Below are positions 1 to 23,766 of a stretch of 32,667 nucleotides of DNA, piece by piece (position 1 is the stretch's first letter; each line of letters opens with the position of its first letter). Source of the DNA: Sandaracinus sp. (GTDB lineage: Bacteria > Myxococcota_A > Polyangia > Polyangiales > Houyiibacteriaceae); the NCBI GenBank assembly GCA_002699025.1, contig PABA01000225.1, positions 1-32,667 of the forward strand, in the 5' to 3' direction. The notes beneath the pieces are model-generated. The model was not told where the DNA came from, did not search any database, and worked only from the letters and a program-made list of their open reading frames with translations. Made by a program: the position numbers and the translations under genes.

Positions 1-235
1 CCGTCCCGGGTACGGCTGTGCGAGTCCGTCCCAGGTACGGCCGTGCGCCGAGTCCGTCCCGGGTACGGCCGTGGGCCGAGTCCGTCCCGGGTACGGGTGT
101 GCGAGTCCGTCCCAGGTACGGCCGTGGGCCGAGTCCGCCCCGGGTACGGCTGTGCGAGTCCGTCCCAGGTACGGCCGTGGGCCGAGTCCGTCCCAGGTAC
201 GGCTGTGCGAGTCCGTCCCGGGTGCGGCCGTGCGC
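1..235. repeat. Tandem repeat array, alternating 25/28-bp units
   Basis: Nine head-to-tail copies of a unit starting GAGTCCGTCCCRGGTACGG. The first copy is cut by the window edge, so the array may continue upstream. Copies mostly alternate between a 28-bp form ending CCGTGGGCC or CCGTGCGCC and a 25-bp form ending CTGTGC, giving a higher-order unit of about 53 bp. Units abut with no unique spacers, so it is not a CRISPR array. No credible gene covers it. It lies downstream of the DUF1232 gene. Function unknown. Confidence 0.9.
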
Positions 236-9222: not shown

Positions 9223-9528
9223 GGGGGCGGCAGGGTACGCCCGTCGCGGGGGCGGCGCGAGCGGACGGACATCGGCCTGATGTGCGGCCCTCGTGCGGTG
9301 TCTTCTGCACGGTGATCTTCACGTGCTCTGCACGGTGCTCATCAGGTGCTCTTCAGGTGCTCTGCACGTGCTCTTCAGGTGCTCTGCACGGTCCTCTTCA
9401 CGTGCTCTGCACGGTCCTCGTGCATCGTTCTCTGCACGGTCCTGGCCCGCGGCCCTCGCGCCGGCGAGGGGTCAGCGCGGGGCCGGCGGAGGCGAGCGGC
9501 ACTGGATGGCTCGCCGCCCCGAACGGGA
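9223..9528. other. Intergenic interval upstream of rseP
   Basis: 306 bases between the 3' end of the subtilisin-like gene and the rseP start. It contains the TGCAC repeat array at 9301-9444 and a likely rseP -10 hexamer TACCCT at 9232-9237 (minus strand). No convincing gene was found. Stop-free frames through the repeat encode only Cys/Leu/Val-rich low-complexity peptide. Confidence 0.6.
9301..9444. repeat. Degenerate 11-12-bp tandem repeat array (TCTGCACGGTGC type)
   Basis: About twelve units of 11-12 bp alternate between TCTGCACGGTSC and TCTTCAGGTGC or TCTTCACGTGC. Many units carry the palindromic core GTGCAC or CACGTG. Base composition is less GC-rich than the surroundings. The array sits upstream of rseP. 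It could arise by slippage or bind a repeated factor; the sequence cannot decide. Confidence 0.8.
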
Positions 9529-13545: not shown

Positions 13546-15227
13546 ATGAACTACGGCTTCGTCATCGACAATCGCTCCTGCATCGGCTGTCACGCCTGCT
13601 CGACGGCCTGCAAGAGCGAGAACGAGGTGCCCCTCGGGGTGTACCGGACCTGGGTCAAGTACACCGAGACCGGCACCTACCCCGACTCGCGGCGGCACTT
13701 CCAGGTGACGCGCTGCAACCACTGCGCGAACCCGCCCTGCGCGCGCATCTGCCCGACGGGCGCGATGTACCAGCGCGACGACGGCATCGTGGAGTTCGAC
13801 AAGGACGCCTGCATCGGCTGCAAGGCCTGCATGCAGGCGTGCCCCTACGACGCGATCCACATCGACCCGGAGACGAGCACGGCGGCCAAGTGCCACTACT
13901 GCGCGCACCGCGTCGAGGTCGGCCTCGAGCCGAGCTGCGTCGTCGTCTGCCCGACCCACGCGATCATCGCCGGGGACATGGACGACCCGGAGTCGGAGAT
14001 CTCGAAGGTCCTCGCGAAGGAGAAGGTCACCGTGCGCAAGCCCGAGCAGGGCACGGCGCCGAAGCTCTTCTACATCGAGGGCCACGACGTCAGCCTCACG
14101 CCGACGGCCACCGAGCGCGCCCCCGAGACCTTCATGTGGGCCGACGTGATGCCCCTCCACGCGAGCCCCGGTGGGGCCGTCTCCCTCGGCGCCCCGGCGG
14201 GCGTCGGCGCGGGCGCCCCGGCCCCGAAGAAGAAGCGCCTCCCCATCATCAGCCGCGACGGACGCGAGCTCCGCCAGCCGCAGCCCCAGGGCGACCCGGC
14301 GAGCGGGCCCATCCACATCGGCGAGCGCGTCGCCGGCCACATGGTGCAGGTCGGCTACAACGCGCAGCACAAAGTGCCCTGGCACTGGCCCGTGCCCGCC
14401 TACCTCGTCACGAAGGGCATCGCCGCGGGCGTCTTTCTCTTCCTCGCGCTCGCCGCGATCCTCGGCCTCGCCCCCTTCCAGGGCACGGTCATGGCCCTCG
14501 GCGCCGCCGTCGCCACCGCCTTCATGGGCCTGACGACGGCCCTCCTGGTCTACGACCTCGAGAAGCCGACGCGCTTTCTGAAGATCCTCCTCCGCCCCCA
14601 GTGGCGGAGCTGGCTGACCCGCGGCGCGGTCTTCCTGATCGGCTTCTCCACCATCGCGGGCTTGCTCATGGTGACGGAGGGAGGCGCGGCGCTCGGCCTC
14701 CTCTCCGAAGACCTCGCCGCGAGCGCGCGCCCCTGGCTCCTCTTCGCGGGCCTCCCGCTCGCCGTCGGCGCGGCCATCTACACGGCCTTCCTCTTCGGCC
14801 AGGCCGAGGGGCGCGACCTCTGGCAGAGCACGCTCCTGCCCTTCCACCTCATCGTGCAGGCCGGGATGATGGGCGCCGGCACGGTGCTCGTCCTCGGCGC
14901 CTTCGTCGACCTCGAGCCCGCCCTGGCGACGCTCGCCGTCCGTACCTTCGCCGTCTTCCTCGGCCTCGACCTGCTCATGCTCCTCCTCGGCGAGCTCGGC
15001 ATGCCGCACGCCTCCGAGGTCGCCGCCCGCGCCGCCCACGAGATCACGCGCGGCCACTACAAGAACCACTTCTGGGGCGGCGCGATCGTCCTGGGTCACC
15101 TCATCCCCGCCGGGCTCCTCTTCCAGGACTCGCCCCTCATGGCCGCCGCGGCCGGCCTCTCGGCCGCCGTCGGTCTCTACTTCTACGAGCACGCCTTCGT
15201 CATGGCGCCTCAGGAGGTCCCGAACTC

Positions 15228-15231
<4 letters not shown>
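13546..15231 (+). CDS. Fused 4Fe-4S ferredoxin / NrfD-type membrane subunit (SoeBC- or PsrBC-like)
   Basis: A 561-residue protein joining two subunits that are usually separate. Residues 1-185 are a ferredoxin-type subunit with four Cys groups (CIGCHACSTAC, CNHCANPPCARIC, CIGCKACMQACP, CHYC with SCVVVCP), enough for four [4Fe-4S] clusters. A Pro/Ala/Lys-rich linker (about 215-260) follows. Residues about 285-555 hold eight predicted membrane helices of the NrfD/PsrC family, which passes electrons to or from quinone. There is no signal sequence, so the Fe-S part should face the cytoplasm. The molybdoenzyme gene follows with a GTGA overlap. I read it as the electron-transfer and anchor part of a sulfite-oxidising SoeABC-like complex. 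Polysulfide or thiosulfate reductase is an alternative. Confidence 0.9.
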
Positions 15232-18281
<3,050 letters not shown>

Positions 18282-18338
18282 GCGGGGCGGAGCCGGGTGT
18301 CACGAAGGCACGCGGCGCCATCCGTTAGGATCGCGAGC

Positions 18339-19376
18339 GTGCCGGAGAACGCGCCCGAGAGCGACATCGAGACGGGGCCCGAGGCCGCCGAGCGCGCGGA
18401 GGCGCGGGGGCGGGGCTACGTGCTGCTCGCGGACCTGATCGCGCGGGGGCCGACGGAGGCGCTCGAGGCGCCGGCGCGGGCGAGCGAGCTGCTGGCGGAG
18501 GCGCTCGATGGCTACCCGGAGCGCGACGAGGCGGAGGCGGATCACCAGCACGTCTTCGGCTTCGTCGTGCACCCCTTCGAGGGCGCCTTCCTCGACCCGC
18601 GGGGCGAGGTCGGGAGCACGCGGGGGGCGGCGCTCCACGCGCGCTACGAGGCCTTCGGCTACCGGCCCCCGGCGAAGGGCGAGGACCCGGAGCACCTGGC
18701 GACGGAGCTCCGGGCGCTCGGCGTGCTGAGCGGCGCCGAGGCGGACGCGGCGGCGGACGGGAAGGCGGACATCGTGGGGCACCTGCGGGAGCTCCAGCGG
18801 GGCTTCCTCGACGAGCACGTGCTGCGCTGGTTCGGGGCGCTGGCCTCGGCGGCCCGTCGCTCGGGGCGCGCCTGGCCGACGGCGCTCCTGGCGCAGCTCG
18901 AGGACCTGCTCGCGCTTCACCGGGGCGAGCTCGGGGGCGCGGTGGAGGCGCCGCCGCTCGAGGGGAAGCCGCTCGCGCTCGACGATCCGGAGACCGACCT
19001 GCGGGGCATCGCGCGCTTTCTGACGACGCCGGCGCGCGCCGGGCTCTTCCTCGGCAAGGACGACCTGGCGCGGGTGGGGCGGGCGCTCGAGCTGCCGCGG
19101 GGCTTCGGCTCGCGGGCGCTGATGACGCAGAACCTGCTCCGCTCGGCCGTGCGCTTCGGGCGGCTCGGGGAGGTCACGGCGGCGCTCGGCGCGATCCTCG
19201 CGGCCTGGGAGGAGGAGATCGACGCCTCGCCCTTCGCGGCGCAGCTCGCGCCCTGGCGGCAGCGGGGGGCGACGACGAAGGGCGCGCTCGAGGAGCTCGG
19301 CGCGGCGGCGGCGCGCTTCGCGGAGGAGGCGGAGGAGGCCGACGAGGAGCCGCCGAGCGGGGAGCGCGGGGCGTGA
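18339..19376 (+). CDS. TorD-like molybdoenzyme chaperone with C-terminal extension
   Basis: A 345-residue soluble protein. The first 200 residues are mainly helical and match the TorD/DmsD/NarJ chaperone pattern, with FGFVVHPFEGAFLDP (73-87) and the diagnostic FLDEHVLRWFGALA (156-169). Such chaperones help insert the molybdenum cofactor and hold the partner until mature. The partner should be the molybdoprotein encoded 57 bases upstream. The family is usually about 200 residues, so the remaining 145 residues are an extension, with a second helical block and an acidic tail. The GTG at 18339 has TAGGAT seven bases upstream; an in-frame GTG at 18297 is possible. Family assignment is by motif only. 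Confidence 0.75.
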   Translation: MPENAPESDIETGPEAAERAEARGRGYVLLADLIARGPTEALEAPARASELLAEALDGYPERDEAEADHQHVFGFVVHPFEGAFLDPRGEVGSTRGAALHARYEAFGYRPPAKGEDPEHLATELRALGVLSGAEADAAADGKADIVGHLRELQRGFLDEHVLRWFGALASAARRSGRAWPTALLAQLEDLLALHRGELGGAVEAPPLEGKPLALDDPETDLRGIARFLTTPARAGLFLGKDDLARVGRALELPRGFGSRALMTQNLLRSAVRFGRLGEVTAALGAILAAWEEEIDASPFAAQLAPWRQRGATTKGALEELGAAAARFAEEAEEADEEPPSGERGA

Positions 19377-21013
19377 GCGCCACGGCGAGCGAGGGCCCGG
19401 CCGAAGAGCGCCCAGCGTCCGTCGCGCCGGGGAAGGCCGTCGACGCCAAGCACCGCTGGCTCTCGGATGGGCTCGCGGGCGTGAGCGTCGCGCTCGTCGC
19501 CATCCCCCAATCGCTCGCCTACGCGGACCTCGCTGGCCTGCCGCCGCACCACGGCCTCTACGCCTCGGCGCTCCCGCCCCTCTGCGCCGCGTTCTTCGCG
19601 AGCTCGCCCTACCTGCAGACGGGGCCCTCGGCGCTCACGGCGCTCCTCAGCTTCGCCGCCCTCTCGACGCTCGCCCCCGTCGGGAGCGCCCAGTTCGTGG
19701 CGCTCGCGGCGCTCCTCGCGCTCCTCGTCGGCGTGCTGCGCGGCGTGATCGGCCTGCTCAAGGGCGGCGCCGTGAGCTACATGATGAGCCAGCCCGTGCT
19801 GCGCGGCTTCGCGACGGCCGCCGCCGTGCTCATCTTCGCCTCGCAGCTCCCGAAGGTCCTCGGCGTGAGCGTCGAGGGCGAGGGCGTAATGGTCCGCGCC
19901 CTCGCCGCCTTCTCGGACCCCTCGGCCTGGGAGGTCGAAGCGCTGGCCCTGGCCGGCGGGACGCTGGTGTTGATGCTCGGCGGGCGGCGCCTCCACACGC
20001 TCTTCCCCGGCGTGCTCGTCGCGCTCCTCGGCGGCATCGCCTACACGAGCCTCGCCGGCTACGAGGGCGCGGTCGTCGGCGAGGTGCCGAGCACCATCCT
20101 CCCGCCCTTCTCGCTGGACCTCCCCTGGGCGCAGCTCCCGCGCTTGCTGGTGGCCGGCGCGATCATCGCGCTCGTGGGCTTCTCGGAGGCGGCGAGCGTG
20201 AGCCAGGTCTTCGCCGAGCAGTCGCGGCGCCCCTGGGACCCGAACCGCGAGTTCATCAGTCAGGGCGTCGCCAACCTCGCCGCGGGCGTCGCGGGGGGCT
20301 TCCCGGTGGGTGGCTCCTTCTCGCGGAGCGCGCTGAACCGGGCGGCCGGGGCGCAGACCCGCTGGGCCGGGGCCGTCACGGGCGTGGCGGTGCTCGCGTG
20401 CCTCCCCTTCGCGGGCCTCCTCGCGCGGCTCCCCATGGCCGTGCTCGGCGCCATCGTGCTCGGCGCGGTGCTCAAGCTCCTCGACCCGCGCCCGCTGATG
20501 CGCTTCTGGAAGCTCTCGAAGCTGCAGGCGCTCGTGGGCTACGCGACCTTCGGGCTCACGCTCTGGCTCGCGCCGCACGTCGAGCATGCGGTGCTCGCGG
20601 GCATCGCGCTGGCCCTCGGGGTGCACGCCTGGCGCGAGCAGCGCTTCCACGTCGAGGCGGGGCTCCAGGACGAGACGCTCGTGCTCCGGCCCATGGGCGT
20701 CGTCTGGTTCGCCTCGGCGCCGCTCTTCCGGCAGGCGCTCGCGCGGGAGCTGGCGGCGCATCCGGGGGCGCGGGACGTGCGCATCGAGCTCGGGGCCGTG
20801 GGGCGCGTCGACCTGACGGGCGCGCTGATGCTCCAGGAGGTGGTCGACCGGGGCGCGGAGGTCGGGCTCGAGGTGCAGCTCGACGACGTGCCGCCGCATG
20901 CCCGGCGCATCCTCGGGCGGGTCTGCGCGGAGTCCGTGTGCGAAGGCGCCGTCGGCACGGGCGAAGGTGAGCGCGAGTCGGAGGCGGCGAAGTCGGAGGA
21001 GTCGGCGCCGTGA
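19373..21013 (+). CDS. SulP-family (SLC26) anion transporter with STAS domain
   Basis: A 546-residue protein. After a hydrophilic tail of about 30 residues come about 10-14 membrane segments with the SulP signature (VAIPQSLAYADLAGLPPHHGLYAS), the second signature TGPSALTALL, and GGFPVGGSFSRSALN. A cytoplasmic STAS domain lies at about residues 430-520 (LRPMGVVWFASAPLF, VRIELGAVGRVDLTGALML). SulP proteins move sulfate, bicarbonate or related anions. The start GTG overlaps the chaperone stop as GTGA, which ties it to the sulfur-oxidising genes. Its likely job there is sulfate efflux, or supply of another anion. Direction and substrate are inference; most bacterial SulP proteins studied are importers. 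Confidence 0.92.
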   Translation: MSATASEGPAEERPASVAPGKAVDAKHRWLSDGLAGVSVALVAIPQSLAYADLAGLPPHHGLYASALPPLCAAFFASSPYLQTGPSALTALLSFAALSTLAPVGSAQFVALAALLALLVGVLRGVIGLLKGGAVSYMMSQPVLRGFATAAAVLIFASQLPKVLGVSVEGEGVMVRALAAFSDPSAWEVEALALAGGTLVLMLGGRRLHTLFPGVLVALLGGIAYTSLAGYEGAVVGEVPSTILPPFSLDLPWAQLPRLLVAGAIIALVGFSEAASVSQVFAEQSRRPWDPNREFISQGVANLAAGVAGGFPVGGSFSRSALNRAAGAQTRWAGAVTGVAVLACLPFAGLLARLPMAVLGAIVLGAVLKLLDPRPLMRFWKLSKLQALVGYATFGLTLWLAPHVEHAVLAGIALALGVHAWREQRFHVEAGLQDETLVLRPMGVVWFASAPLFRQALARELAAHPGARDVRIELGAVGRVDLTGALMLQEVVDRGAEVGLEVQLDDVPPHARRILGRVCAESVCEGAVGTGEGERESEAAKSEESAP

Positions 21014-23766
21014 GCGCGGAGGGTCGCGCGCTCGGCCGCGCGACGCTCGCCCCGCCGCCACCTCGCGCTCTGCCGCGCGGTGCCCGGAAGAGCGGCGCTC
21101 CGACGACCGGCCTGCGAGCGACCGCGCTGCCCCCCGCTCGGCAGGGCCGTGCCCGGAAGAGCGCCGCGCCGAGGACCGGCCCGCGAGCGACCGGCGCCGC
21201 GCTGCGCCCCGCTCGGCAGGGCCGTGCCTGGAAGAGCGTCGCGCCGAGGAACGGACCGCGAGCGCCCGGCTCCACGCGGCTCTTCGCGCGGTACTCCGCC
21301 CGGCCGTCGCGCGCGGCGGCGCGGCTCGGCGCGGCACTGCACGGCGCGGCGCTGCACGGCGGGGCACTGCACGGCGCGGTACCGCTCGGCGTGGTGACGC
21401 TCGGCTTGGCGCTGCTCGGCGCGGTGCTGCTCGCGCCCGCCCGGACGAGCGCGCAGGAGGCCGTGCCGCCCGCCGTCGTCGACGCGCCGCCGCCGGCCTA
21501 CCCGGAGGGCGCCACGGGCGATGCGACCGTCGACCTGCTCCTGACCATCGAAGACGACGGAACGGTCTCCGCGGTGGAGGTGGCCGCCGGGGAGCCACCC
21601 TTTGCCGAGCGCGCGGCCGCGGCCGCGGCCGCCTACCGCTTCACCCCCGCCCGCGTGGACGGCACGCCCCGCCGCGCCCGCATCCGCTTTCGCGTAGCTT
21701 TCACGGCGCCCGCGCTGGCGCCCGGCCGGGACGCCGCGGCGGTGGCGGACGCTGGGCCGGACGCCGAAGCCGACCCCGACCTCGAGGCCGCCGCGGCGGA
21801 GGCGGACGCCGGGGCGGAGGCGGGCGCCGAAGCCGGAGGGGACGCCGCTGCCGAAGCCGAGCCCGAGCTCAAGTACGGCGCCCGCGCCACCGCCGAGGCC
21901 CCCCGCGTCGACGCCGCCCGCCACACCCTCGAAGCCGAGGAGCTCGGTCGCCTCGCCGGCACCCGCGGCGATCCCCTTCGCGGCCTCGAGCTCCTCCCCG
22001 GCGTCGGCCGCCCGCCGCTCCTCTCCGGCGGCCTCATCCTCCGCGGCAGCGCCCCCCGCGACAGCGCCGTCTTCATCGACGGCGTCGAGGTCCCGCTCCT
22101 CTACCACTTCGGAGGCCTCACCAGCGTCGTCCCGGCCGCCTTCCTCGAGCGCATCGAGCTCGTCCCGGGCGGCTTCTCCGTGCGCTACGGCCGCCGCACC
22201 GGCGGGATCGCCGAGGTCGGCACGCGCGCCCCGCGCGAGGGCCTCCACGGGGCCGGCGAGCTCACCGTCATCGACGTCAACGCCCGCCTCGAGGGCGGCC
22301 GCCCGGGCCTCGTCGGCGCCGTCGCCGCCCGCCGCTCCCTGGTCGACGTCTTCTTCCGCAGCCTGATCCCCACGGACCTCGGCGGCGACGTCGCCGCGCC
22401 GGCCTACTGGGATTACCAGGCCATGCTCGACTGGGCGCCCTCGCCCACCGACGACCTCCGCGTCCGCGTCTACGGCGCCCACGACGCGCTCCGCTCGTCC
22501 ATCGCCGATCCCGGCGGCGACGACCCGGCCATCCGCGGCGACTTCGGCGGCAGCCAGCAGTTCCACGTCGCCCAGCTCCGCTGGATTCACCGCGGGCCCA
22601 TCCGTCGTGACCTCTCCTTCGCCGTCGTCCCGGACGTGCAGGACGTGGGCATCGGCGACGCGGGCCTCCGCCTCCGCCAGACCCACTTCCGCCTCCGCGC
22701 CGAGTGGCAGGCCTCCCCCACCGAGGCGGTCCGCCTCCGCGCCGGCCTCGACGCCGACCTCACGGTGTTCGACGTCCTCTTCAACGGCCCCCGCCCGCGC
22801 CAGGTCGAGGGCACGGGCCGCCAGCCCCCCCTCGCCAGCGAGGAGCTCGTCCGCCTCGACCGCCGCGGCACCACCTTCCGGCCCGCCGCCTACCTCGAGT
22901 CGCGCATGACCCCCTTCGACGTGGCGACGCTCCAGCTCGGCCTCCGCGTCGACCACTTCTCCGAGATCGACGCCTTCACCCTCGACCCCCGCGCGCTCCT
23001 CCTCGTCCGCCCGGCCGAGGGCTGGGTGCTCACGGCCTCCGCCGGCCTCTTCTCCCAGCCCCCCGAGCTCGCCGAGTCCGAGCCTACGCTCGGCAACCCG
23101 GACCTCGAGCCGCTCCGCGCGGCCCACTACGCGCTCGGGGCCGAGGGGCGCGTCGGCGGCGCCCGCTTCGGCGCGCAGGGCTTCGTGAAGCGCCTCTGGG
23201 ATCTCCCCGTCAGCACCCGCGGTGGCGCCCCGCCCGTCTTCGAGTCCGCCGGCACGGGGCGCGTCCGCGGCCTCGAGCTCTTCGCGAACGTCGACCGGGG
23301 CCCGCTCCGCATGCGCGCCAGCTACACCTTCGCCCGCAGCCGCCGCCGCGATCGACCGGCCGCGCCGCGCCGGGTCTTCGACTTCGACCAGCCGCACGTG
23401 CTCGCGCTCACCGCCATGTTCCGCCTGCCGCGCGGCTGGACCCTCGGCGCGACCTTCCGCTACGTGAGCGGCAACCCGGACACGCCCGTGGCCGGTGCCG
23501 TCTACGACGCCGCGAGCGGCACCTACCTGCCTCTGAACGGTGAGCCCAACGCGCTCCGCGCCGAGGCCTTCCGCCGCCTGGATCTCCGCGCCGAGAAGGT
23601 CTGGACCTTCGCCGGGGGCGGGCGCCTCCGCCTCTTCCTCGACGTCCTGAACGTCACCAACGCCGACAACCCCGAGGGGCGCCGCTACGACTACGACTAC
23701 ACGGACTCGGTCCCCGTCCGCGGCCTCCCGATCCTGCCGAGCCTGGGCCTCCGCGGCGAGCGCTGA
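21010..23766 (+). CDS. TonB-dependent receptor with N-terminal TonB C-terminal domain
   Basis: Up to 918 residues. Repeats dominate the first 140 residues. A signal peptide ends near PARTSAQE (about 150). A TonB-type energy-transducer domain follows (about 160-235; AYPEGATGDATVDLLLTIED and AYRFTPARVDG are characteristic). Then come an Ala/Asp/Glu linker (about 240-285), a receptor plug (about 300-410; GLILRGSAPRDSAVFIDGVE, then GGFSVRYGRRTGGI) and a beta-barrel to the end. Receptors of this class take up large or scarce substrates through the outer membrane. Having the transducer domain on the same chain is unusual. The GTG at 21010 overlaps the SulP stop, but the true start is uncertain because the repeat region has no Met. 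The C-terminus ends in Arg rather than an aromatic residue. Ligand unknown. Confidence 0.85.
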   Translation: MSAEGRALGRATLAPPPPRALPRGARKSGAPTTGLRATALPPARQGRARKSAAPRTGPRATGAALRPARQGRAWKSVAPRNGPRAPGSTRLFARYSARPSRAAARLGAALHGAALHGGALHGAVPLGVVTLGLALLGAVLLAPARTSAQEAVPPAVVDAPPPAYPEGATGDATVDLLLTIEDDGTVSAVEVAAGEPPFAERAAAAAAAYRFTPARVDGTPRRARIRFRVAFTAPALAPGRDAAAVADAGPDAEADPDLEAAAAEADAGAEAGAEAGGDAAAEAEPELKYGARATAEAPRVDAARHTLEAEELGRLAGTRGDPLRGLELLPGVGRPPLLSGGLILRGSAPRDSAVFIDGVEVPLLYHFGGLTSVVPAAFLERIELVPGGFSVRYGRRTGGIAEVGTRAPREGLHGAGELTVIDVNARLEGGRPGLVGAVAARRSLVDVFFRSLIPTDLGGDVAAPAYWDYQAMLDWAPSPTDDLRVRVYGAHDALRSSIADPGGDDPAIRGDFGGSQQFHVAQLRWIHRGPIRRDLSFAVVPDVQDVGIGDAGLRLRQTHFRLRAEWQASPTEAVRLRAGLDADLTVFDVLFNGPRPRQVEGTGRQPPLASEELVRLDRRGTTFRPAAYLESRMTPFDVATLQLGLRVDHFSEIDAFTLDPRALLLVRPAEGWVLTASAGLFSQPPELAESEPTLGNPDLEPLRAAHYALGAEGRVGGARFGAQGFVKRLWDLPVSTRGGAPPVFESAGTGRVRGLELFANVDRGPLRMRASYTFARSRRRDRPAAPRRVFDFDQPHVLALTAMFRLPRGWTLGATFRYVSGNPDTPVAGAVYDAASGTYLPLNGEPNALRAEAFRRLDLRAEKVWTFAGGGRLRLFLDVLNVTNADNPEGRRYDYDYTDSVPVRGLPILPSLGLRGER
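21080..21290 (+). repeat. Three 69/75-bp repeats at the 5' end of the receptor gene
   Basis: Copies begin with GTGCCCGGAAGAGCG or GTGCCTGGAAGAGCG at 21080, 21149 and 21224, spaced 69 and 75 bases apart; both are multiples of three. They read as Arg/Ala/Pro-rich low-complexity peptide in the receptor frame, or may lie in an untranslated leader if the real start is downstream. Confidence 0.85.
21328..21432 (+). repeat. Seven 15-bp repeats encoding the receptor signal-peptide region
   Basis: Seven units with exact 15-base period, from GGCGCGGCACTGCAC to GGCGCGGTGCTGCTC. In frame they read GAALH, GAALH, GGALH, GAVPL, GVVTL, GLALL, GAVLL. The units thus grade from a repeat into the hydrophobic core of the signal peptide. 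Confidence 0.9.

Follow-up and report, generated by a model that had tools for sequence, protein, structure and literature searches.

Frame-keeping repeats in signal peptides have been described in human genes. In human CNDP1, a (CTG)n leucine repeat occupies the hydrophobic core of the signal peptide, and the accessible text of the source reports that repeat number changes secretion (PMC6335667). The signal peptide of human APOB is also polymorphic in length, with forms of 24 or 27 residues according to the available portion of PMC2674308. A third source, in the part available, deals with single-residue repeats of eukaryotes, which it describes as rare in bacteria (PMC3124433). A literature search, which could not reach most subscription journals, returned no bacterial report of a tandem repeat in a signal peptide. 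The locus described here lies in a 32,667-nucleotide stretch of DNA from Sandaracinus sp., the whole of which is referred to as the window. As in CNDP1, a frame-keeping repeat lies within a hydrophobic signal-peptide core. However, the CNDP1 repeat is single-codon, eukaryotic, and polymorphic between people, whereas the repeat here has a worn 15-bp unit, probably lies largely before the start codon, and is not known to be polymorphic, the genomes compared including one of its genus. APOB resembles this locus in that signal length shifts by whole codons, but it involves a three-codon insertion or deletion in a human gene rather than a long array.

The features discussed are as follows.

19373–21013, plus strand: upstream gene for a SulP-family transporter with a STAS domain; GTG 21010 overlaps the stop codon of this gene
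21014–21390, plus strand: sulP–receptor gap and probable untranslated leader, repeat units 1–4 included, as delimited by coding scores and by lag-15 identity over 21014–21327
21066–21271, plus strand: older higher-order layer of three ~75-bp copies, spaced 69 and 75 nt apart, with weak 15-bp substructure; non-coding
21328–21432, plus strand: degenerate 15-bp tandem array of seven units (TRF array, 21316–21433)
21391–23766, plus strand: gene for a TonB-dependent receptor of 791 aa when read from GTG 21391, with TonB_C-like domain, plug, and beta-barrel
21391–21453, plus strand: probable signal peptide MVTLGLALLGAVLLAPARTSA, 21 residues, with predicted cleavage before QEA; the last 2.8 repeat units supply its first 42 nt
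21493–21705, plus strand: TonB_C-like N-terminal domain of the receptor, residues 35–105

The receptor gene and its 15-bp array

The protein carries both a plug (PF07715, 31.3 bits; cut-off, 23.9) and a beta-barrel (PF00593, 75.5 bits; cut-off, 27), which identifies it as a TonB-dependent receptor. MxcH-type TonB-dependent receptors (NF038079) likewise place a TonB_C-like domain before the plug and barrel, and their profile matches P0001 residues 154–416. This match scores only 54.8 bits, where the cut-off is 925, and so the receptor is not MxcH. Its acidic Ala/Asp/Glu linker (window 21732–21848) is repeat-like, with a 57-bp period. At the related loci L015 and L017, a carboxypeptidase-regulatory-like match separates TonB_C from the plug, exceeding the cut-off only in L015; L014 and L016 have no such match. 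Upstream of the receptor, window 13546–21013 encodes a probable respiratory set consisting of an Fe-S/NrfD fusion, a molybdopterin oxidoreductase, a delta-type chaperone, and the SulP transporter.

The seven 15-bp units lie in register and in the receptor frame, where they read GAALH, GAALH, GGALH, GAVPL, GVVTL, GLALL, and GAVLL. The original prediction had called them exact, but no two units are identical; neighbors agree at 11–14 of 15 bases, and all pairs at 9–14 of 15. The lag-15 identity of the array is 0.811 (81%), as compared to a mean of 0.308 and a maximum of 0.589 in a composition-matched, first-order Markov sequence of 5 Mb. When the array's own 35 codons were shuffled, 0/20000 shuffles attained the observed value. 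The in-gene part alone (21391–21432) has a lag-15 identity of 0.741, attained by 22/20000 codon shuffles. Because the period is retained there, this part is a true repeat, beyond mere low complexity, and the Markov and codon-shuffle nulls together rule out chance or low complexity as the source of the array. Slippage requires runs of near-identical units, and the near-identical runs expected of a contingency locus are absent. The replacement of CAC (His) by CTC (Leu) from unit 3 to unit 4 may, to judge from few changes, reflect selection for hydrophobicity that acts only near and after the start.

The periodicity extends upstream in weaker form. Over 21014–21327, lag-15 identity is 0.49 and lag-75 identity is 0.55, with other lags averaging 0.35; a lag-15 value of 0.49 is attained by 2.4% of 248 intergenic gaps. 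The gap looks like one old tract whose better-preserved end reaches into the receptor gene. Further tandem arrays in the window (1–232, 2354–2576, and 9304–9443), with periods of 53, 111, and 11–45 bp, lie largely in gene gaps.

Probable translation start and signal peptide

The start was examined with a hexamer coding score, for which 1.1 Mb of this genome served as training data. The gene caller and signal scan were home-made, and starts were chosen by hand. The top-scoring ATG, GTG, or TTG start is GTG 21391; it is codon 2 of unit 5, 3 nt beyond the first four units of the array. In the receptor frame, the hexamer score is negative over 21014–21330, near zero over 21306–21395, units 1–4 included, and positive beyond. 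Across most of the gap it is negative in all six frames, as it is throughout the three ~75-bp copies. Start scores are highest at 21337–21391, and those of the two end positions differ by about 1 unit. Three CTG codons in units 1–3 have a neutral coding score, and a rare CTG start within these units is conceivable. No Shine-Dalgarno-like word lies upstream of 21391, but by the same test such a word is missing in 55% of 933 genes of this genome. There is no ATG near the receptor start, and the 100 bp upstream of 21391 have a G+C content of 84%. The receptor frame is open far upstream, which says little because the genome has 74% G+C. By coding score, GTG 21391 is the most likely translation start; the missing Shine-Dalgarno word and the uncharged n-region described below count against it. 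Since this start lies inside unit 5, units 1–4 are probably untranslated leader. The original prediction had placed all seven units in the signal peptide; the seven units, their register, and their period stand, but the true start probably lies beyond most of the repeats, a circumstance that the prediction itself had named as counting against it.

The peptide read from 21391 has a hydrophobic h-region with a mean hydropathy of 2.82 over 10 residues, and its core is encoded by the last array units, as had been proposed. Cleavage is predicted after TSA and before QEA; the site was assigned from the AQ motif common to relatives, and TSA both fits an A-x-A-like cleavage motif and sits at the relatives' AQ junction. 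The net charge of the n-region is 0. A positively charged n-region is usual, but not strictly required, in Sec signal peptides, and among 237 signal-like N-termini in our sample, net charge is 0 in 33 and below 0 in 13. Position, core, and cleavage motif point to a Sec signal peptide of the signal peptidase I type, which we call only probable because the n-region charge is missing.

Relatives indicate what such a signal looks like when no repeat is present. The receptor query matches all 57 genomes searched, its own included, none of the others being of the same genus. From 32 relative loci, 25 entered the periodicity test and 28 entered the alignment, which was completed by the genome's own paralogues L067 and L068. 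Four loci (L024, L036, L039, and L040) were left out for contig-end truncation or for want of a candidate, and a further paralogue, L069, offered no convincing start. Relatives' starts were hand-picked from candidate lists. The homologous loci used share 34–48% identity with the receptor, and none of the 25 homologous 5' regions shows a 15-bp period, the highest lag-15 identity being 0.49 versus 0.81 in the window. Signal length over the window sequence and 30 homologues, two of them its own paralogues, ranges from 18 to 35 residues with a median of 22; the AQ junction is found in 29 of these 31 sequences. Counted from 21391 to the A of AQ, the receptor signal is 21 residues and falls within the homologue range. 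The signal of L014, MLGLALVLVSGAAGPHAARSQ, has a similar LGLAL core with neither repeats nor n-region charge. To judge from these sequences, the signal peptide predates the repeat or is independent of it, because homologues have ordinary-length signals lacking the 15-bp period. The repeat would then be a lineage-specific overlay on an export signal that did not need repeats to arise. In the original interpretation, repeat expansion was suggested to have created the signal; that part is not supported by the homologues, whereas its statements that the last units encode the core and that a 15-bp step preserves the frame hold.

Repeats elsewhere in the genome

The genome is rich in tandem arrays. 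It carries 471 per Mb (1.44 Mb), as compared to 222 in G043 and 109 in G007, and period-15 arrays of at least three copies occur at 37.5, 7.5, and 0 per Mb, respectively; this comparison covers two relatives only (400 kb of G043 and 220 kb of G007), both of lower G+C content (0.719 and 0.694 vs 0.741). In a 1.10-Mb sample, arrays take up ~16% of the non-coding DNA but 2.3% of the coding DNA. Non-coding arrays are also led by periods 18, 15, 21, 6, 12, and 24, though no frame constraint applies there. Gene starts are rarely spanned by an array that reaches 30 bp to either side (2/933 genes).

Five other sites of this genome, among those most similar to the receptor array, were examined. Four (on contigs C210, C185, C61, and C8) are 15-bp arrays in gene gaps; at the first, two converging genes are separated by ~27 copies of a 15-bp unit (L062:14043–14465). 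The fifth, on C218, coincides in part with a predicted gene of weak score and adjoins an in-gene 15-bp array. Other 15-bp arrays of the genome, in gene gaps or within genes, share the period of the receptor array. Units from an unbiased sample match its unit at 11 or more of 15 positions in 5/90 cases against a null of 4.2%. A single dispersed 15-bp family was therefore rejected: the best genome-wide matches are alike but were chosen for likeness, and the unbiased sample is at chance. At L113:354–671, 53 copies of the hexanucleotide GTCGCT, probably in a gene gap, read as (VA)n and misled the start caller. The apparent (VA)n signal peptide was discarded as probably spurious, since the coding score is positive in the codon-like repeat and negative from the repeat to ~830; the real start of that gene is probably downstream of the repeat.

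A second exported protein contains 15-bp units. With the first ATG assumed as the start, this 127-aa protein (contig C162; L093:966–1349, minus strand) opens with MTLRRMTLRRMTLRRSALRRGALRRSAL, which is encoded by successive 15-bp units. The units of its n-region read MTLRR three times, then SALRR, GALRR, and SAL, and three have their own ATG; if translated, they would enlarge the n-region. The protein has matches in 45/57 genomes, its own included, and no such repeats were found near the starts of the five relatives examined. Shorter in-frame repeats occur at L082, L084, L089, and L091. Because the C162 protein supplies a second case, a broader reading stays alive, in which 15-bp duplication repeatedly enters the 5' ends of exported-protein genes (the receptor, the C162 protein, and the four shorter cases) and remodels the signal's n-region or core. 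Signal peptides would be frame-safe landing sites, and export strength could drift with copy number. We regard this reading as rather unlikely. In-frame repeats with a diagonal score of at least 12 occur in 37/309 signal-like N-termini here, 0/90 in G043, and 0/44 in G007, and TRF repeats in 22/237 signal-like genes versus 18/461 others (40/698 overall). After local codon shuffling, however, 16/309 signal genes and 26/624 others reach p ≤ 0.01 (6/90 signal genes in G043), and the difference is no longer clear. Signal peptides are thus not clearly favored as repeat targets.

Origin of the array and alternative readings

We consider it probable that a worn 15-bp tract fills the sulP–receptor gap and enters the gene by ~42 bp, with the start at GTG 21391, units 1–4 in the leader, and the last 2.8 units forming the core of a normal-length Sec signal that is cut after TSA. 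The repeat would be a tolerated by-product of the genome's duplication load; it would not be the source of the signal, nor is it an established tuning device. Of this reading, the array, the coding boundary, the ordinary signals of relatives, and the repeat load are observed, and the exact start, the cleavage site, and passive tolerance are inferred. The tract may have grown through tandem duplication in this array-rich genome and then extended into the first codons of the receptor. Tolerance there would be passive, because each unit preserves both frame and hydrophobicity: the 15-bp step keeps the frame, and the GLALL and GAVLL pentapeptides remain hydrophobic.

It is unlikely that most or all units are translated, with a signal peptide that owes its origin to expansion and a copy number that adjusts receptor export. 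The in-frame gradation from GAALH to GLALL, the neutral CTG codons, the array in the n-region of the C162 protein, and the human leucine repeat, whose number is reported in the accessible text to alter secretion (PMC6335667), are all consistent with such an arrangement. The best start at 21391, the repeat-free signals of similar length in relatives, the lack of a clear repeat excess in signal genes, and the His-bearing units 1–3, which are less hydrophobic than a core, argue against it. A misassembly in the tract, such as a collapse that hides the true start and unit number, is quite improbable. The genome is in 238 contigs, this one of 32667 bases, and the G+C-rich approach to 21391 with neither ATG nor Shine-Dalgarno word would fit a missing start. 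All units differ, however, making collapse of identical copies less likely, and the frame continues from the array into the gene. Translation from GTG 21010 would give the core a preceding 127-residue Arg-rich extension; GGAGGAG lies upstream, GTGA overlaps the sulP stop, the frame is open throughout, and the spacings of the ~75-bp copies are both multiples of three. The coding score nevertheless loses ~22 between 21391 and 21010, read backward, and over most of that stretch it is negative in all six frames; no homologue needs the extension, leaving this start very improbable. Least probable of all is a role of the array, mostly within the gene gap, as binding sites or a structured DNA or RNA element that sets expression from the leader, since folding of the tract is no stronger than that of shuffles (z 1.08), no promoter-like or terminator-like sites were found in it, and it is not conserved in relatives.

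With a worn tract that enters the gene at unit 5 and a start at 21391, changes in units 1–4 would leave the protein unaltered, whereas a unit change in 5–7 would shift core length five residues at a time. By analogy with the human leucine repeat, tuning of receptor export by copy number is possible: if the translated copy number changes, export could be adjusted without breaking the frame. In G+C-rich genomes, open frames through tandem tracts can easily mislead start calling. Mainly, this case shows how a tandem tract in a gene gap may become part of a coding signal.
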